Below are positions 1 to 13,787 of a DNA stretch of 13,787 bases, one piece after another. The translations under genes and the position numbers were made by a program. The stretch's first letter is position 1. Each line of letters opens with the position of its first letter. The notes beneath the pieces are model-generated. The model saw only the letters and a program-made list of their open reading frames with translations, was not told the DNA's origin and ran no database searches. Source of the DNA: Pseudobdellovibrionaceae bacterium (GTDB lineage: Bacteria > Bdellovibrionota > Bdellovibrionia > Bdellovibrionales > UBA1609). The stretch spans positions 1 to 13,787 of the forward strand of contig JAPORL010000166.1 of assembly GCA_026712605.1 (NCBI GenBank). The letters run 5' to 3'.

Positions 1-127
1 TTTTGCCACAAAGCGACTTGTGGTCGCGTTGTTGTCAAATCCGAACTCGTTTTTAGCTTTATATCTTACAAACTTTTAACCAAGAAACTTAAATGGGAAT
101 AAATAAGCTTTAAAACTCAGACATGCG
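1..127 (+). repeat. Palindromic repeat family, copy A (left end cut by window)
   Basis: First of two tandem copies in the same orientation; the shared start TTTTGCCACAAAGCGAC recurs 127 bp later. Going rightward it holds a GCGAC/GTCGC hairpin with a G:T pair near the loop, the core GTCAAATCCGAACTCG, the right arm TTTTTAGCTTTATATCTTAC, and an outer AT-rich extension ending in ACTCAGACATGCG. The left arm would lie outside the window. No protein is encoded. Family membership is seen directly in the sequence; any function is unknown. Confidence 0.85.
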
Positions 128-238
128 TTTTGCCACAAAGCGACTTTCAGTCGCTATGTGTTCAAATCCGAACTCGTTTTTAGCTTTGTATCTTACAAGC
201 TTTTAATCAAAAAAACTAAATAGGAATAAATAAGCTAT
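128..238 (+). repeat. Palindromic repeat family, copy B
   Basis: Tandem neighbour of copy A. It carries the best inner hairpin of the family: CACAAAGCGACT (134-145), loop TTC, then AGTCGCTATGTG (149-160), which is 12 pairs with a single A-A mismatch. This is followed by GTTCAAATCCGAACTCG and a right arm TTTTTAGCTTTGTATCTTAC. Its left side is the outer extension of copy A rather than a matching left arm, so A and B probably arose by unequal recombination. It ends about 40 bp before the promoter of the next gene. Confidence 0.88.
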
Positions 239-858: not shown

Positions 859-978
859 TCAAAAAATTGCAGATAAAAGATTTAAAACGAGTTCGGATTT
901 GAACATATAGCGACCATAGGTCGCTTTGTGGCAAACCGCATGTCTGAGTTTTTAAAACTTTTATCTGCAATTTTTTGA
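859..978 (-). repeat. Palindromic repeat family, copy C, complete; likely bidirectional terminator
   Basis: A complete 120-bp copy, inverted relative to A and B. The arms 859-879 and 958-978 are perfect 21-bp inverted repeats, and pairing continues inward (881-887 with 950-956) after one mismatch. Inside are GAGTTCGGATTTGAAC and the hairpin AGCGACC-ATA-GGTCGCT (909-925). The outer arm has AAAAAATTGC at the left and GCAATTTTTT at the right, which is the layout of a bidirectional intrinsic terminator. It lies between two genes that converge on it (ending at 813 and 1017). The repeat is certain; terminator activity is inferred. Confidence 0.9.
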
Positions 979-1003
979 AGAAATTTAACACTGAGACAAA
1001 AGC

Positions 1004-1015
1004 TTGCTAAAGCAA
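1004..1015 (-). terminator. Possible weak terminator hairpin after the sugar dehydrogenase
   Basis: TTGCT-AA-AGCAA directly follows the stop codon of the minus-strand gene and is followed on that strand by GCTTTTG. The stem is short and the T run poor. The stronger palindrome at 859-978 lies just beyond and may do the real work. Confidence 0.3.
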
Positions 1016-1016
1016 T

Positions 1017-2189
1017 TTATAAGGGAGATAGTTTTAATATCATCCCTTCATCTACGCTTATCCAAATAAATCCTTTAGGATCTTCAATGACATCACGAAG
1101 ACGAAAATTAAGTGAAGATAATAGCCTTTCTTCTTTTATAACTGTTTTATTGCGAAACTTTAATCGGTTAAGGTGGCTTAAAGCTAAAGCTCCTGAAAAA
1201 AAATCGCCTTTCCATTTTTTAAATTTTTTTCCAGAGTAAATTAACAAAGTAGAAGGAGCAATAGAAGGTGTCCAATATTTAATCGGTTGTTCCATGCCTT
1301 TTTTATGAGTTCCTTCTCCAATTTTAAAGCCAATATAAGATTTGCCATAAGTAATAACTGGCCAGCCATAGTTTTTTCCTTTTTTAATTAAATTAATTTC
1401 ATCTCCTCCTTTAGGACCATGCTCTTGCAGATAGATTTGATGAGTTTCAGGATGAATAAAAAGACCTTGTGGATTGCGATGACCCCAGCTGTAAATTTCT
1501 GGCTTAGCTTGTTCATTTTTTATGAAAGGATTATCGGGAAAAGCTTTTCCGTTTTCATCTAATCTTAAAAGTTTTCCTAAGTGAGAAGATAAATCTTGAG
1601 CTAATTCTTTTTGTCCTCTATCTCCTACTGTCATAAACAAAGAGTTTTTTTTATCAAAAGCTAGTCTAGATCCAAAATGTATCCCGCTGTTATAAAAATC
1701 TTGAGCTAAAAAAATAATCTTCAAATTTGTAATTTCATTTTCTTTTAATTCTCCTACGGCTAAGGCTGTTGTTTGTTTTCTTTCTTTAGCAAAGGAGTAA
1801 GTGAAATAAATTTTTTTATTTTTTGTAAATTGTGGATGTAGAGCAAGATCTAATAAACCTCCTTGTCCTCTATCGTATAAATTTTTAAAATCAACTTTTA
1901 TTAAGCTTATTTGACCTGTTAAAATATCTAATTTTTTAACAAGTCCTTGTTTTTCTGTCCAAATCAGCTCTCTTTCATTTAAAAAATCCATTCCCCAGGG
2001 AATGCCTAAGTTTTCAGCTAGCACTTCTACTTTAAAGTGAGGTTTTGTTTTTTTATTTTCAAATAGAAGTTCTAGTTTTTTTGGAGTTTGATTTTGATTT
2101 ACAGGCTGGCTAAGCTCTGCTCTGTTAGCTTGGCTTAAAGATGCATATAGAATAAATAAAATCGTATAATAAGACATAGCTTTAAGCAT
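1017..2189 (-). CDS. PQQ-dependent aldose sugar dehydrogenase (YliI/GdhB-like), exported
   Basis: A soluble periplasmic quinoprotein of the glucose/sorbosone dehydrogenase family. Such enzymes oxidise aldose sugars with pyrroloquinoline quinone and Ca2+, passing electrons to the respiratory chain. The six-bladed propeller motifs are all present (numbering from the ATG at 2189): GIPWG 62-66, GQGGLLDLALHPQF 108-121, GIHFGSRLAF with the expected catalytic His161, GDRG 179-182, GHRNPQG with the expected cofactor-contacting Arg228, EHGPKGGDEIN near 246-256, NYGWP, SIAPSTL and a C-terminal FRLRDVIEDPKGFIWI. Length (390) is normal for the family. The frame can be extended to a TTG at 2216, but I chose the ATG at 2189 because it begins a clean signal peptide ending near SLSQA; an ATG at 2177 is also possible. 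No ribosome site precedes any of these. No PQQ synthesis genes are nearby. Confidence 0.93.
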   Translation of the reverse strand: MLKAMSYYTILFILYASLSQANRAELSQPVNQNQTPKKLELLFENKKTKPHFKVEVLAENLGIPWGMDFLNERELIWTEKQGLVKKLDILTGQISLIKVDFKNLYDRGQGGLLDLALHPQFTKNKKIYFTYSFAKERKQTTALAVGELKENEITNLKIIFLAQDFYNSGIHFGSRLAFDKKNSLFMTVGDRGQKELAQDLSSHLGKLLRLDENGKAFPDNPFIKNEQAKPEIYSWGHRNPQGLFIHPETHQIYLQEHGPKGGDEINLIKKGKNYGWPVITYGKSYIGFKIGEGTHKKGMEQPIKYWTPSIAPSTLLIYSGKKFKKWKGDFFSGALALSHLNRLKFRNKTVIKEERLLSSLNFRLRDVIEDPKGFIWISVDEGMILKLSPL

Positions 2190-2308
2190 TTTTACATAAA
2201 TATCGTCATATAGCAAATTATGAATAATAGAGTTATTTTTTTTATATTTTTATGGAATTAGAGCTTTCAGTCTTATTAGGTTTTATTTTTTCCATTATAG
2301 CTATAACT

Positions 2309-2378
2309 AAAAATTTGTAAGTCGCTTTGTGGGAAACCGCATGTCTGAATTTTAAGCTTTGTTATGTAAAAGCTTATA
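2309..2378 (-). repeat. Palindromic repeat family, copy D, internally deleted
   Basis: A fragment in the same orientation as copy C. An arm remnant (AAATTTGTAA) runs straight into GTCGCTTTGTGGGAAACCGC and ATGTCTGA, so the GAGTTCGGATTTGAAC core and half of the inner hairpin are missing. Its right side has its own small inverted repeat, AAGCTTT (2354-2360) with AAAGCTT (2369-2375). It lies between the divergent genes starting at 2189 and 2432. The rest of the gap (2190-2308) shows nothing recognisable. Confidence 0.75.
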
Positions 2379-2411
2379 ATAAGCCCAGCAAGCTACTTTA
2401 CATTTGGTAGA

Positions 2412-2417
2412 TATAAT
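2412..2417 (+). promoter_or_regulatory. Consensus -10 box for the 2432-3193 gene
   Basis: A perfect TATAAT whose expected start point (about 2424) lies only some eight bases before the ATG at 2432. There is no convincing -35 box and no ribosome site, so the transcript would be nearly leaderless. Confidence 0.4.
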
Positions 2418-2431
2418 GAAATTATATTATT

Positions 2432-3193
2432 ATGAAAAAAGCAACTTTATTATTTATTTTTCTTTCTTTTAATATTTTTGCTAATGACCCTACAGCTTCT
2501 GAAACACAATCAGATACAGAAGCGGGTTTTTGCTGTTTCAATCTTGAGTATTTGAAAAGCAGATCATCAAATACTTTAAAAATGATTGGCAAATTGAGTG
2601 ACTTGCTGGGTAATAAATTTAGACAAATGTATTTAACTCTTGTTGATAAAGACAACCGGGAAGAATATATAGACTCAAGTATCCAGATCCTATCTGATAC
2701 ATTAAATGTACTAAAAACAGGAGATAAAGATAAAATAGCTAATATAAAACAGACATTTCTTGATTCTGCTGATACTGGACATATTATTGGAGACTGTGTA
2801 CACCTTGAAGGGGCTAATTATCCTTCTTGTCTTAAAGAAAAACTATTAGAATTAGAAAATCTAAAAAAAGAATTGAAAAAAGATTATATAGTTGGAAATC
2901 AGCTTACTCCTTATCAAATAGCGTTTTTAAATCCTGATCACATAAGCCAGAAATTTAAGGTTTCTCCTGATGGTGATAATAATTTTGCTTATATGAGTAA
3001 AGAACAGATACAAGCTATCTCCTTAAAGGAAATTATGAAAATTAATCCTCTTAAGACTGAGGGTGTTCTTTCAAATCTTTCAGACAGTCAATTTAGAGCT
3101 TGGGCAACAGAAGAAAACATTGAGAGACTTCCGGAAAATATTCTAAAACAAAATATAAAGAGAATATATCCTGAAAAAAGAGTTCGGATTTGA
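2432..3193 (+). CDS. Secreted orphan protein, shortened paralogue of the 12204 protein
   Basis: A 253-residue protein with a signal peptide (1-17, cleavage after NIFA). Residues 153-245 align without a gap to residues 253-345 of the protein encoded from 12204, about 54 of 93 identical. Shared blocks include LTPYQ/ITPYQ, QKFKVSPDG, QIQAI, QFRAWAT and NIKRI. Upstream, C-x3-EG-x5-C (Cys122-Cys133) is matched by Cys187-Cys198 in the paralogue, so the N-terminal parts are related too. The paralogue continues at least 180 residues further, with a repeat-rich tail. This one stops three residues after the shared domain: codons for RVRI and the TGA belong to palindromic repeat copy E. It is probably a 3'-truncated gene whose product may still be made and exported. 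The function of the domain is unknown. Confidence 0.8.
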   Translation: MKKATLLFIFLSFNIFANDPTASETQSDTEAGFCCFNLEYLKSRSSNTLKMIGKLSDLLGNKFRQMYLTLVDKDNREEYIDSSIQILSDTLNVLKTGDKDKIANIKQTFLDSADTGHIIGDCVHLEGANYPSCLKEKLLELENLKKELKKDYIVGNQLTPYQIAFLNPDHISQKFKVSPDGDNNFAYMSKEQIQAISLKEIMKINPLKTEGVLSNLSDSQFRAWATEENIERLPENILKQNIKRIYPEKRVRI

Positions 3194-3294
3194 ACTGAAT
3201 AGTGCCTGAAGTTGCTATGTGGCCAACCGCATGTTTGAGTTTTTAATTTTTTATCTTATAAGCTTTTATACAAAACTATAAAACAGGAAATAAA
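3179..3294 (-). repeat. Palindromic repeat family, copy E, fused to the end of a gene
   Basis: Same orientation as copies C and D. AGAGTTCGGATTTGAAC forms the last codons and TGA of the preceding gene. It is followed by a decayed inner hairpin (AGTGCC..AGTTGCT), GGCCAACCGCATGTTTGAG, and an arm TTTTTATCTTATAAG-type plus outer extension that reaches the pepA stop codon at 3295-3297. The left arm is absent, replaced by coding sequence. The element thus fills the whole space between two convergent genes. Confidence 0.8.
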
Positions 3295-4770
3295 TTACTG
3301 ATAGGATCTAGCAAGCTCCACAAAGGTTCTTACCATAACACCGGAGGCTTGTTTTGAATTGCAATACTCTAAGCGGTTATGAACATTCCAAGCTGTCCCT
3401 GCAATGTCAAAGTGAGCCCAAGGGATATTTTTATCTACAAAATGCTCTAAAAAAGCCGCCGCTGTAGAGCTTCCTGCTCCTCTAGTAGAAGATATGTTAG
3501 CTACATCAGCTATAGCGCTTTTTATATCAGTTGAATGTTCTTTCACCAAAGGCAAACGCCAAACTCTTTCTCCTGATTTCTCACTGGCTTTGATAATTTT
3601 TTTAACTAGATTTTCATTTTTAGTAAAAAATCCAGTAAAAATATTGCCTAAAGCCATAATAATAGCTCCTGTTAAAGTGGCGGCATCAAAAATAGCTTGT
3701 GGTTTTTTTTCACTAGCATAACTTAAAGCGTCCGCTAAAATGAGTCGTCCTTCTGCATCTGTATTTAAAACTTCCATAGTTTTTCCGTTACGTGCTTTTA
3801 AAATATCTCCGGGTTTATTTGCATTTTCTCCCGGCATATTTTCAGAAGAAGGAATTAAACCAATGACATTGACTTTTAAATTTAGTTTTTCAATAGCGAT
3901 CATAGCTCCCGCAACAGCCGCCGCTCCACACATATCAAATTTCATTTCGTCCATAGCTTGAGCGGGCTTCAAACTGATACCTCCTGAGTCAAAAGTGAGT
4001 CCTTTACCTACTAAAATAATAGGTTTTTTAGTAGAGCCTTTATATTCCATTATAATAAAACGAGGCTCTTCAGGACTACCTAAAGAAACTCCCAGCAAGC
4101 CTCCCATTTTTTCTTTTTTAATTCGGTTTTTATCCCATACTGTTGTTTTAATTTTTGTGTTTTTTGTTTTTACTTTTATCTCATTAGCTAAAATAGATGG
4201 TGTCATTAAATTGCCGGGATAATTTGCTAGTTTTTTTGAAAAGTTAGAGGCTTCTGCTAAAATTAGACCTTCTTTTACTGCTTTTTCAATAGAAGATTGT
4301 TTTTTAGAGGTCAAACAAATAAAAAGATCTTTAATTTCTTTTTCGTTTTTGGATTTTTGTTTAAACTCATTGCATGTGTAGTTAGATAAAGTGACAGCTG
4401 TTGTGAAAGCTTGACAAATTTGATTTAAGTCTTTTGTGTTTTTTGTGATAAAACTTTCTACTAATACATCCGCTGTATTTTGATTATATTTTTTTAACTT
4501 TTTATACATTTTAGATGAAATTTGTCTCACTTCTTCATAATTAAAAGAGCTTTCATCTCCTAAGCCCATAAGCAGAAGGTATTGATGAGTTTTAGAATTT
4601 TGTAAGGGAAGAATGACGCTTTTTTTTCTATCTCCTTTAAAGCCAATTTCTGTCAGAGTGTTTTGAATATCTTTTTTGTGAGAGTTTAAAGCTTTGGGAA
4701 AACTGTTTTTAGACATAAAAGCAACTAATGTGTTGGCATTTTGTTTTGTTTTTTTAATTGAGATTTTCAT
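3295..4770 (-). CDS. pepA: Cytosol (leucyl) aminopeptidase, M17 family
   Basis: Hexameric metallo-aminopeptidase that removes N-terminal residues from peptides in the cytoplasm and serves peptide turnover; in E. coli it also binds DNA. At 491 residues it is full length. The two-metal site is intact: Lys256, Asp261 (GKGLTFDSGG), Asp279 (MKFDMCGAAA), Asp338 and Glu340 (NTDAEGRL), with catalytic Lys268 and Arg342. Their spacing equals that of E. coli PepA (K270, D275, K282, D293, D352, E354, R356). The N-terminal macro-like domain (about 1-160) is diverged, as usual. No signal peptide. The ATG follows AAAGGA at good distance. It is a single gene, divergent from 5280, with a palindrome in its promoter region. 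It is the only obvious housekeeping gene in the window. Confidence 0.97.
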   Translation of the reverse strand: MKISIKKTKQNANTLVAFMSKNSFPKALNSHKKDIQNTLTEIGFKGDRKKSVILPLQNSKTHQYLLLMGLGDESSFNYEEVRQISSKMYKKLKKYNQNTADVLVESFITKNTKDLNQICQAFTTAVTLSNYTCNEFKQKSKNEKEIKDLFICLTSKKQSSIEKAVKEGLILAEASNFSKKLANYPGNLMTPSILANEIKVKTKNTKIKTTVWDKNRIKKEKMGGLLGVSLGSPEEPRFIIMEYKGSTKKPIILVGKGLTFDSGGISLKPAQAMDEMKFDMCGAAAVAGAMIAIEKLNLKVNVIGLIPSSENMPGENANKPGDILKARNGKTMEVLNTDAEGRLILADALSYASEKKPQAIFDAATLTGAIIMALGNIFTGFFTKNENLVKKIIKASEKSGERVWRLPLVKEHSTDIKSAIADVANISSTRGAGSSTAAAFLEHFVDKNIPWAHFDIAGTAWNVHNRLEYCNSKQASGVMVRTFVELARSYQ

Positions 4771-4790
4771 AGTATGTCCTTTCTTAATAA

Positions 4791-4810
4791 GTTATATTTG
4801 ATATATCAAA
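4791..4810 (-). promoter_or_regulatory. pepA promoter region with a 14-bp perfect palindrome
   Basis: On the minus strand TATAAC (4796-4791) is a 5/6 match to the -10 box, about 20 bases before the pepA start; no good -35 box was found. Immediately upstream is TTTGATATATCAAA (4797-4810), a perfect 14-bp palindrome in the position of the spacer, where a bound repressor would block polymerase. It resembles an FNR box (TTGAT-N4-ATCAA), but the half-sites are two bases too close. An operator is inferred, not shown. Confidence 0.35.
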
Positions 4811-4863
4811 GTTTGTATTAATTCAAGTTTAAAAATAAAAAAAATTGGAATTTATATTAAAAG

Positions 4864-4957
4864 CTTGTAAGATATAAAGCTAAAAACTCGGACAGGCTTT
4901 TACACAAAGCGACTTTCAGTCGCTATGCTCAAATCCGAATCCCATTTTGAACTTTGT
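4864..4957 (+). repeat. Palindromic repeat family, copy F
   Basis: Nearly identical to copy G, 102 bp downstream (one base difference, TATA for TACA, over about 94 bp). It contains a left arm CTTGTAAGATATAAAGC, AAACTCGGACAGG, hairpin AGCGACT-TTC-AGTCGCT (4908-4924) and the subfamily core CTCAAATCCGAATCCC. The right arm is cut short and runs into the left arm of G. A recent tandem duplication is the simplest reading. Confidence 0.88.
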
Positions 4958-4958
4958 T

Positions 4959-5076
4959 TGAAAAACTTGTAAGATACAAAGCTAAAAACTCGGACAGGCT
5001 TTTACACAAAGCGACTTTCAGTCGCTATGCTCAAATCCGAATCCCATTTTGAACTTTGTATCTTACAAGTTTTTCA
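4959..5076 (+). repeat. Palindromic repeat family, copy G, complete
   Basis: A complete 118-bp copy. The arms 4959-4981 and 5054-5076 are perfect 23-bp inverted repeats, the left one beginning TGAAAAACTTGTAAG. The inner hairpin is at 5010-5026 (AGCGACT-TTC-AGTCGCT). Aligned with copy C, the arms differ by three substitutions and two single-base indels, yet every change is matched on both sides of each copy. Confidence 0.92.
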
Positions 5077-5081
5077 TCAAG

Positions 5082-5218
5082 ATACTTAAATATGTGTAAA
5101 TAAAGCCTTAAAGTCTAAATTATGACTTTTACCTTCAAAGCGACCTGTGTTCGCAATGTGTTCAAATCCGAACTCCTTTTTAGCTTTGTATCTTACAAGT
5201 TTTTAATTAAGAAACTCA
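5082..5218 (+). repeat. Palindromic repeat family, copy H
   Basis: Third copy in the cluster and same orientation as F and G, but of the A/B subfamily: core GTTCAAATCCGAACTCC and right arm TTTTTAGCTTTGTATCTTAC. The inner hairpin is partly decayed (GCGACC-TGT-GTTCGC). Its left part corresponds to the outer extension seen between A and B rather than to a paired arm. It ends about 25 bp before the -35 box of the next gene. Together F, G and H account for most of the 509-bp gap between the divergent genes at 4770 and 5280. Confidence 0.82.
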
Positions 5219-12204: not shown

Positions 12205-13787
12205 TGCTTAGGCTATTTATTTTTATTTGTTTGTCTTTTAGTAGCTTTGCAACTGATGAGGATGGTGTTGTAGGAACTTATGAAATTCCAGAAATTCCTG
12301 AAGTAGAAGTAGATACAGAAGCGGAAGCTTTGTGTCTGGACTTTGCTTGTATTCAAAAAAGAAATCCTACTTTTTCTCTACAAGAAGTTTCTGATTTATG
12401 TTACGAAATGCTTCCCGATTATTGTTTAGAAAATAAAGATATTAAGCCAGAGCATCTCATTTGCTCATCTAACCCAAAGACTAAGGTGAGAACTTCAGCA
12501 AGATCTGTAGAATATTGTGTTATAGGTATAATTGATGGAGTTATAGATATATTTGGATTGCTAATTAAAGGAGTTAAAGGAATTTATTCACTTTATGTTG
12601 ATGAAGAATACAGACAAGAATCTTTAAAGGTAGCTAGCTTTGTCATGGATTATGTGTTAGATGCGATAATAGAAGATGAGGCTGAAGCTGAGATTAAAAG
12701 AGATGAGATTAAGGATATAATTACTTCTCCTATTGTGGGTTTAGCTGATGAAATAACAAACTGTTTGAACATTGAAGGGACTGTTAATTATTTCTGTGAG
12801 GCTCTTGCTCAATATAAAACGGCTATGGCTATAGTTCGTATTCCTCGTAGAATTTATAGGCGCGGACAGACTATAGGGAGAGGGCTTCCAAAAAAACTTA
12901 GGACTTCAGAAAAATTAGCAGAAAGATCAAAACTAAATATATTATTGAAAAAAGGTACTATAATTGGAAATAAAATTACTCCTTATCAAGCAGTTCTTTT
13001 AACTAAGTCTCAAATAAAACAGAAATTTAAAGTTTCTCCTGATGGTAATAATAATCTTGCTTATATGAGGAAAAGACAAATTCAAGCTATTCCTTTAGAA
13101 GAAATTAAGAAAGTTCCTACTAGTAATAATTCTGCTGTTATTTCAAAATTTTCAGATAAACAATTTAGAGCTTGGGCGACAAACAAAAACATAGGTCAGA
13201 TTCCGAGAGATATTCTAGAAACAAATATAAAGAGAATAGATTCTAGTTCTATTGCTTCTATTCCTGCTAAAAAACTAGTAGAAATGCAGAAAAAATCTTT
13301 AGAGGCTATGTCTACTCCACAAATTTCCGCTTTAACTCCTAAGCAAGCTTATGAACTAAACCAAGTAGGCAAACTAAGTTATTTTTCTAGATCAAATAGA
13401 GAAATCATTGAATCAAAAATAACAAAATATAATCCACCCCCGATAGTTGCTACAAAACCTCAGCCTCCAGCTACAATTTCGTCAGGTTCAGGTAATATAA
13501 GAACTAATTCACCAACAAACAGAGTAGATGAAGACCAATTAAGAAAATTGTTTTTAACTGTACCAAAGCCTTCAGCTAAACCCTCTGCGGTTTCTCCAAA
13601 GGCTCAGCCTCCAGCTACAACTCCAACAGGTTCAGGCAGTGGAAAAGCTCAGCCTCCATCTACAACTCCAACAGGTTCAGGCAGTGGAAAAGCTCAGCCT
13701 CCATCTACAACTCCAACAGGTTCAGGCAGTCAAAAAGCTCAGCCTCCATCTACAACTCCAACAGGTTCAGGCAGTGGAAAAGCTCAG
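12204..13787 (+). CDS. Large secreted protein with Pro/Thr/Ser/Gly repeat tail (runs off window end)
   Basis: At least 528 residues, with no stop before the window edge. A signal peptide (1-16, FSSFA) is followed by a Cys-rich region (44, 49, 66, 74, 87, 105, 187, 198), a hydrophobic patch (105-132) and a basic stretch (209-250). Next come a 93-residue domain (253-345) shared with the 2432 gene product, and weakly repeated units of the form Q-I-x-x-I/L (QIQAIP, NIGQIP, SIASIP, QISALTP) up to about 390. From residue 418 the protein becomes a Pro/Thr/Ser/Gly linker. One diverged unit (KPQPPATISSGSG) is followed from residue 466 by tandem 15-residue units of KAQPPSTTPTGSGSG. The start has AGAGG eight bases upstream and overlaps the preceding stop by one base. 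A surface-exposed or secreted adhesin-like protein is plausible; no named family was recognised. Confidence 0.85.
   Translation, partial: MLRLFIFICLSFSSFATDEDGVVGTYEIPEIPEVEVDTEAEALCLDFACIQKRNPTFSLQEVSDLCYEMLPDYCLENKDIKPEHLICSSNPKTKVRTSARSVEYCVIGIIDGVIDIFGLLIKGVKGIYSLYVDEEYRQESLKVASFVMDYVLDAIIEDEAEAEIKRDEIKDIITSPIVGLADEITNCLNIEGTVNYFCEALAQYKTAMAIVRIPRRIYRRGQTIGRGLPKKLRTSEKLAERSKLNILLKKGTIIGNKITPYQAVLLTKSQIKQKFKVSPDGNNNLAYMRKRQIQAIPLEEIKKVPTSNNSAVISKFSDKQFRAWATNKNIGQIPRDILETNIKRIDSSSIASIPAKKLVEMQKKSLEAMSTPQISALTPKQAYELNQVGKLSYFSRSNREIIESKITKYNPPPIVATKPQPPATISSGSGNIRTNSPTNRVDEDQLRKLFLTVPKPSAKPSAVSPKAQPPATTPTGSGSGKAQPPSTTPTGSGSGKAQPPSTTPTGSGSQKAQPPSTTPTGSGSGKAQ
13599..13787 (+). repeat. In-frame 45-bp tandem repeat encoding KAQPPSTTPTGSGSG
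   Basis: Units start at 13599, 13644, 13689 and 13734, with a fifth beginning at 13779 and cut by the window end. They are almost identical in DNA: unit 1 has AAG and GCT (Ala) where the others have AAA and TCT (Ser), and unit 3 ends CAA (Gln) instead of GGA (Gly). A diverged relative sits at 13455-13496. Such similarity implies recent expansion, and unit number may vary between strains. Confidence 0.95.

Follow-up and report, generated by a model that had tools for sequence, protein, structure and literature searches.

Palindromic elements with a conserved core and locus-specific inverted-repeat arms in Bdellovibrionales, and their possible origin by fold-back copying

Whether long perfect hairpins result from slow compensation or from direct copying of one arm onto the other is an old question, and it is raised by two palindromes of one bacterial contig, whose arms differ between the copies and match perfectly within each copy. 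The window, that is, the whole stretch of DNA analyzed (13,787 nt), is one complete contig (G000:C12) of a Bdellovibrionales-related MAG, the host genome being 1.35 Mb in 251 contigs with a completeness of 89.6% and a contamination of 5.9%. Besides the two complete palindromes (C and G), the window contains six copies that are partial, one-armed, or in tandem, as follows.

1..79, plus strand: copy A1, truncated by the contig start; unit 1 of a tandem pair with a period of about 127 bp
113..205, plus strand: copy A2, unit 2 of the A1/A2 pair, without a matching left arm
859..978, minus strand: copy C, with perfect 21-nt arms at 859-879 and 958-978 and the core at about 889-948
2318..2383, minus strand: half copy, with the left half of the core and the left arm only
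3180..3268, minus strand: copy D, one-armed; the 3' end of ORF 2432-3193 lies within it
4857..4956, plus strand: copy F, tandem neighbor of G with a period of about 102 bp; right arm shortened
4959..5076, plus strand: copy G, with perfect 23-nt arms at 4959-4981 and 5054-5076 and the core at about 4989-5045
5110..5206, plus strand: copy H, with the core and the right arm, without a matching left arm

As described in the initial annotation, the two arms of each complete palindrome are exact reverse complements (21 nt in C, 23 nt in G), and the arms of C are homologous to those of G and diverged from them by three substitutions and two single-base indels. In 505 kb of DNA read from the host genome, which holds at least 104 copies, the arm pattern of C was found just at its own two places with up to one mismatch, and that of G at 58 exact places. 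The core string TCAAATCCGAA was located, with up to one mismatch, at 123 + 116 places in the host genome versus 22 + 23 places for the reversed control; copies in tandem and a further type of arm around the same core also occur there.

The conserved center of the element consists of CTC.GACA(TGCG), an apical hairpin, and (CC)GAACTC, and is flanked on each side by an imperfect stem of about 12 nt; the arms are variable. Sixty-eight copies were aligned, and the named structure was paired in 85.5% of the cells versus 64.3% after shuffling, the values being 47.1% and 56.4% when the partner was slid by one column. Covariation was 0.550 versus 0.190 in shuffled alignments. Two-sided changes were present in all 18 outer-arm pairs, for which shuffles scored nearly as high, and the number of pairs with any two-sided change (24 versus 22.1 shuffled) and of extra pair types (89 versus 82.1) were in modest excess. 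Mismatches on the core strand comprised 110 of the A-C type and 70 of the G-U type, and G-U wobble was rejected as a sign of a core-strand RNA in view of these counts, in which positions are shared by descent and non-independent. No Rfam model matched the window at its gathering score, and among eight loci just one tRNA, beside the element, was matched. A tRNA relic, prompted by the string GTTCAAATCC, was rejected because no tRNA was detected in the window, and the ideas of a kink-turn, an integron attC site, or a small ribozyme in the core were provisionally set aside.

Of 140 genomes of the order, 7 contained an exact 19-mer of the core, and none its reversed control. With a covariance model built from the 68 copies, an order-wide survey at E ≤ 0.001 identified carriers in 31 of 138 genomes, and a phylum-wide survey at E ≤ 1e-6 in 25 of 368, every one a member of this order; the filters of both surveys are strict, and weak matches are lost by them. 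Six related carriers are Bdellovibrionales or Oligoflexia MAGs, namely APA_bin_46 (G001), RHO2_bin_34 (G002), RHO3_bin_17 (G004), RHO3_bin_33 (G016), IP30b_bin.7 (G031), and IP30a_bin.14 (G135). On reading, the core (CTC.GACATGCG..., the apical hairpin, and ...CCGAACTC) was recognizable in other families of the order, and some copies had the shorter form CTCNGACA-hairpin-GAACTC. Among the matches listed, core-pattern matches outside the order (L174, the viral L213, and L214) were judged on reading to be chance. An assembly artefact is unlikely, given that many different assemblies carry the family, among them the single-contig genomes G042 and G098. The element family is real and unusual.

From the host genome and the six related carriers, 230 copies were collected by the core alone (17-mer with up to four mismatches, then 13-mer with up to three), of which at least one is spurious (L206, minus strand). 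Two arms (score ≥ 12) were present in 63 of 104 copies of the host genome, 48 of 56 in APA_bin_46, 5 of 5 in RHO2_bin_34, 19 of 20 in RHO3_bin_33, 19 of 22 in IP30a_bin.14, 7 of 7 in IP30b_bin.7, and 12 of 16 in RHO3_bin_17. Enough flank for a best-partner comparison was available for 209 copies, 159 of them two-armed, and the best partner of the right arm was the left arm of the same copy in 85 of 159 with ties and in 68 of 159 strictly. The expectation that the two arms of one copy cluster together was borne out in most relatives (with ties, 33/39 in APA_bin_46, 7/7 in IP30b_bin.7, 15/19 in RHO3_bin_33, 4/5 in RHO2_bin_34, and 8/12 in RHO3_bin_17) and failed in IP30a_bin.14 (8/19) and in the host genome (10/58), in which most copies share one arm type. 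Variants common to both arms of a copy numbered 48 in the host genome versus 9.2 ± 2.8 expected (2000 shuffles, maximum 18), as counted in the 49 of 95 copies in which both arms could be aligned to the consensus arm. The matching indels on both arms to which the initial annotation had pointed do occur, four being shared, in a weak excess over the 1.3 expected (shuffle maximum, 5).

Double and single-sided arm changes between nearest neighbors were counted in gapless copies only (42 of 49 copies with flanks in APA_bin_46, 30 of 97 in the host genome). The 42 copies of APA_bin_46 were 98.8% paired over 24 positions, and their nearest neighbors, with a core difference of 0.050 per nt, differed by 78 double versus 12 single-sided changes, where 8.2 doubles would be expected if the arms changed independently. 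The ratio of double to single changes was 22:1 in RHO2_bin_34 and 33:7 in IP30b_bin.7, and was balanced or reversed in RHO3_bin_33 (29:27), RHO3_bin_17 (26:23), the host genome (32:51), and IP30a_bin.14 (1:15), the copies of the last having a common imperfect inner arm; these four ratios stand against fold-back copying, in that arms in these genomes are either not always corrected or have not been corrected recently. Template switching is known to invert the spacer between the arms as a by-product; such an inversion was seen in 0 of 14 copies of APA_bin_46 with both tails and in 1 of 11 copies of the host genome, the latter by a loose pattern whose reversed control was also high.

In more distant carriers, arms proved to be specific to their loci. 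This set (arm score ≥ 13) comprised 87 rows from 21 genomes with nested and overlapping readings counted, and loci L322, L324, L365, and L367 yielded none; its copies were found by the model and a filter that both score arm pairing, so that its counts do not estimate how often copies pair. The model gave 38 matches in genome G028 and 32 in G017, and 24 loci were read in each. Pairwise differences among 20 copies of G028 (three rows with very long arm extensions omitted) and 24 copies of G017 were 0.031 and 0.113 in the core and 0.538 and 0.562 in the outer left arm, versus 0.010 in both genomes between the left and right arms of one copy. The strictly best partner of the right arm was its own left arm in 23/23 copies of G028, 24/24 of G017, and 39/40 pooled from 19 further genomes. 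Over the 12 nt beside the core (23 and 24 copies), likeness between copies was 0.69-0.93 and pairing within a copy only 0.61-0.89, whereas nt 13-42 outward were paired at 0.97-1.00, with likeness between copies dropping from 0.50-0.58 to about 0.3. Correction thus stops short of the stem adjoining the core in these two genomes. Stem lengths range from 28 to about 55 nt. When 20 outer arms of G028 were searched for, each gave exactly two strong matches, and both of these lay at the arm's own locus, the next best having an E of 0.07 (40 of 76 candidate places scored), and copying of arms from elsewhere in the genome was rejected, no second source being found for these 20 arms among the 40 of 76 places scored.

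Flanking genes can terminate within the palindrome. The EpmA gene of G106 has its five 3'-terminal codons and its stop codon inside an arm, and its match to the profile TIGR00462 extends to residue 406 of 407; therefore, the arm on the EpmA side is in all likelihood the native one and the opposite arm its copy. The CutA gene of G017, of which two matched residues fall within the arm, and the Peptidase_S9 gene of G118, with an imperfect arm at the gene end, are weaker cases. Other copies are inserted in frame. The element in HypF of G028 (TIGR00143) is absent from 10 of 10 aligned homologues, which have a short loop at the insertion site, and neither arm is clearly native. Another lies in a gene of RHO3_bin_33 that is probably FadJ-like by its motifs; the stretch is missing in six aligned homologues, and the homologue of G135 has an unrelated longer loop at that position. 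An in-frame insertion was also found in a gene that is presumably shikimate kinase/AroE-like. In seven genomes, the copies had no preferred gene orientation around them (36 convergent, 38 divergent, 30 and 40 tandem). The median distance from the core edge to facing stop codons was 78 nt in G028 and 75 nt in G017, and to facing starts 150 and 196 nt. A terminator or other gene-linked role was rejected, there being no orientation bias, and proximity to stop codons being insufficient for function.

Copies are dispersed and can be nested. Two congeners of G131 lack the element at the orthologous spacer, which measures 33 and 90 nt in them versus 249 nt in G131; intergenic spacers are too divergent for exact element ends or clean empty sites. 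The Y1 (RAYT) transposase profile PF01797, searched in 16 core-bearing, incomplete MAGs (a set outside which G028, G031, and G135 lie), had no match in G000, G002, G004, G005, G016, G017, and G022 and at least one in G001, G007, G008, G010, G015, G020, G038, G042, and G043. A Y1 transposase was tentatively set aside as the mover, with no match in 7 of the 16 genomes and matches in 9.

The anatomy of the element strongly suggests copying, and we consider it probable that the arms are made by fold-back (template-switch) copying seeded by the core. The element would be a dispersed, probably mobile short unit whose constant part is the central core. The core would fold back in single-stranded DNA, the imperfect stem would prime synthesis with the opposite flank as the template, and the sequence outward of the stem would be replaced, for some 28 to 55 nt, by an exact inverted repeat of one flank. 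By repeated rounds the arms could stay perfect, change in concert, and extend into the DNA of the locus. An imperfect stem that primes copying of the sequence beyond it would explain both the locus-unique arms and the mismatches beside the core. The reaction would be the template switch known at quasipalindromes, seeded repeatedly by a conserved core. That such a reaction takes place, whether it acts on insertion or afterwards, which of the flanks came first, and what mobilizes the core are matters of inference. Arm-to-arm correction (template switching or hairpin-templated repair), as offered by the initial annotation, is the option best supported by the locus-unique perfect arms, the predominance of double over single changes in APA_bin_46, RHO2_bin_34, and IP30b_bin.7, and the 3' codons of genes in arms; as a general rule it does not stand, given the mismatched 12 nt beside the core in G028 and G017 and the ratio of 1:15 in IP30a_bin.14, and it needs the amendment that arms are apparently also extended outward into locus-specific sequence. 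The short native loop of HypF would count against simple flank capture at that target, and the few shared indels (4 versus 1.3) and the modest excess over shuffles (24 versus 22.1, 89 versus 82.1) also count against fold-back copying. A more specific form, which we put forward tentatively as one possibility, is that only the core, some 70 nt long and lacking terminal repeats, moves, that synthesis primed by its imperfect stem turns a flank of each new site into a perfect inverted repeat of 28-55 nt, that the fold, not the arm sequence, is recognized in the next round, and that the arms are later kept alike by the same reaction.

Copying might instead be part of the life cycle of the element and no by-product of replication, if, with every transposition through a hairpin intermediate, an enzyme used one arm to remake the other. 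Such dedicated transposition, akin to the hairpin-based mobilization that was a further option of the initial annotation, is rather unlikely in our estimate. In G028, the combination of near-constant cores and unrelated outer arms is compatible with a burst of insertions, each acquiring new arms, and the dispersed and nested copies, the in-frame insertion in HypF, and the absence from the orthologous spacer of two congeners agree with it; however, the concerted change among homologous arms of APA_bin_46 needs no transposition, and seven core-bearing genomes had no Y1 match (nine others having at least one). Strong selection for the fold as the sole cause, a stable RNA or DNA structure being kept by ordinary two-step compensatory mutations, was another option of the initial annotation, and we regard it as improbable. 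It would account for the strong covariation in the arms and the apical hairpin, the conserved letters of the internal loop, and the asymmetric mismatches (A-C 110 versus G-U 70 on the core strand, equivalent to G-T on the other strand). It fits worse because it predicts neither locus-unique arms, nor the mismatches kept beside the core, nor a majority of double changes: outer arms are unique to their loci though the cores differ by 3%, mismatches are tolerated next to the core, and doubles far exceed singles among near neighbors of APA_bin_46 and RHO2_bin_34. The absence of gene-orientation bias in seven genomes and of a G-U excess on the core strand also speaks against it.

The symmetry of the arms about the core and their uniqueness to the locus would also follow if the core inserted into the loop of long palindromes that existed beforehand, and REP palindromes are known targets of insertion sequences (PMC1525189). 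This explanation is disfavored, to the point of being very improbable, because inverted repeats with exact arms of at least 22 nt nearly always contain the core: 27 of 29 were so flagged in the host genome (one more on reading), 41 of 45 in APA_bin_46 (two more on reading), 12 of 14 in RHO3_bin_33 (two more on reading), 7 of 8 in IP30b_bin.7, 25 of 25 in G028, and 24 of 24 in G017, although much of the scanned DNA was selected for holding copies, so that these counts are a lean and no proof. The locus-unique arms, with a likeness between copies that fades outward, make it hardly credible that this is an ordinary MITE-like family of several subfamilies whose terminal repeats are inherited by descent, even though the host genome resembles one in part (one arm pattern at 58 exact places, a second type of arm around the same core, and tandem arrays), as do the IP30a_bin.14 copies with their one common imperfect arm.

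Core-seeded fold-back copying has its closest parallel in template switching, which makes and maintains perfect inverted repeats according to PMC8794818 and PMC8604942; template-switch mutation at quasipalindromes is also treated in PMC7202029 and PMC3820800. As in those quasipalindromes, one arm would template the other, giving perfect arms and simultaneous paired changes, which were found in APA_bin_46, RHO2_bin_34, and IP30b_bin.7 and not in IP30a_bin.14 or the host genome. Unlike the cases described there, at scattered sites and in rRNA and microRNA stems, one conserved dispersed core here would seed arms of 28-55 nt. By analogy, Rickettsia palindromic elements (RPE) would be the nearest element family by habit, REP sequences by abundance, and mitochondrial hairpin elements by shape. 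PMC10969869 describes RPE as dispersed palindromes of about 100-150 bp, some in frame in genes, as are the present copies in HypF of G028 and in the FadJ-like gene of RHO3_bin_33; the locus-specific arms differ from RPE as described there, a distinction by description and not by sequence. REP sequences are likewise abundant, mostly intergenic, and palindromic, but according to PMC3733652 they have stems of 5-13 bp and a GTAG or CGTC tag, whereas stems here are 28-55 bp and the core letters CTC.GACA and GAACTC contain neither tag. MITEs, as described in PMC10969869, are also short and non-coding with inverted repeats; their terminal repeats are common to copies, whereas here the center is common and the inverted repeats differ, by 54-56% between outer arms in G028 and G017, with partial sharing in the host genome. 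Sponge mitochondrial repetitive hairpin elements, as PMC2800124 describes them, are dispersed hairpins with two types that differ by a few complementary stem changes; their stems are conserved and their loops vary, the reverse of the present case.

The view of the initial annotation that no named family has this core agreed with the lack of an Rfam match at gathering score and of a fitting description in the open-licence literature, in which neither a fitting Bdellovibrio palindromic repeat nor a transposable element with ends homogenized by template switching was found. As far as that literature was searched, no prior repeat family has been described with an inherited center and inverted repeats made on the spot.

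Each genome with the family supplies tens to hundreds of natural cases in parallel, with the core as the clock and the arms as the outcome, and from these one can measure how fast, how far, and in which direction hairpin arms are copied. Covariation of a stem alone is, by the same token, no proof of RNA function.

A gene of the window was compared with its paralogue, the paralogous stretches at 2836-3135 and 12908-13207 being 74% alike over 300 nt. The features concerned are as follows.

2432-3193, gene with the first paralogous stretch, 3′ end inside copy D
3180-3268 (-), copy D, a one-armed copy of the dispersed palindromic element

Since the gene terminates within copy D, it seems to have been shortened by the repeat relative to the paralogue. 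Elsewhere in the order, the 3′ ends of both convergent neighbours fall within the palindrome at locus L326 (genome G022) and at L334 and L342 (G106), and the arms therefore contain the last codons of these genes. The element adjoins the same left gene in RHO3_bin_33 (L188:5203) and IP30b (L171:5573), with different arms, opposite core orientation and the right-hand gene inverted in place.

In the genome of the window, the same core is also flanked by arms of another type, consisting of CTAAAGGCAATAAAAAAGC paired with its complement, at the following loci.

L063:3503, L068:8162, L084:5757, L101:5663 and L072:4751, second arm type (CTAAAGGCAATAAAAAAGC)

In IP30a copies (e.g., L227, L121 and L203), the inner arm is common to the copies, with identical mismatches, whereas the outer arms differ between copies and yet pair; in copy L231 of that genome the inner arm is matched. 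Tandem arrays of the element with a period of 128-129 bp (L075:4579-5022, L067:4458-4726, L115 and L103) lack the full left arm in their inner units, and one element lies within the core of another at L309 (G106), L325 (G099) and L343 (G118).

Further repeats were also present: 45-nt coding repeats in tandem (AQPPSTTPTGSGS-like) at 13446-13787 of the window, up to the contig end; a different long palindrome without the core (GTCTCTCTATTTTTTCAGGCAGGCC...) in APA_bin_46 (L141:2708-2819 and L178:1-192); and a second dispersed repeat (around CCCGAGAAGTTACGGAAAAGC) in RHO3_bin_33 (L240 and L188), adjoining the element and within the shikimate kinase-like gene. Two versions of the AroE-like gene in the genome of the window, on contigs G000:C95 and G000:C104, are 77-81% and 44% alike to the RHO3_bin_33 version; contig G000:C95 may represent contamination.
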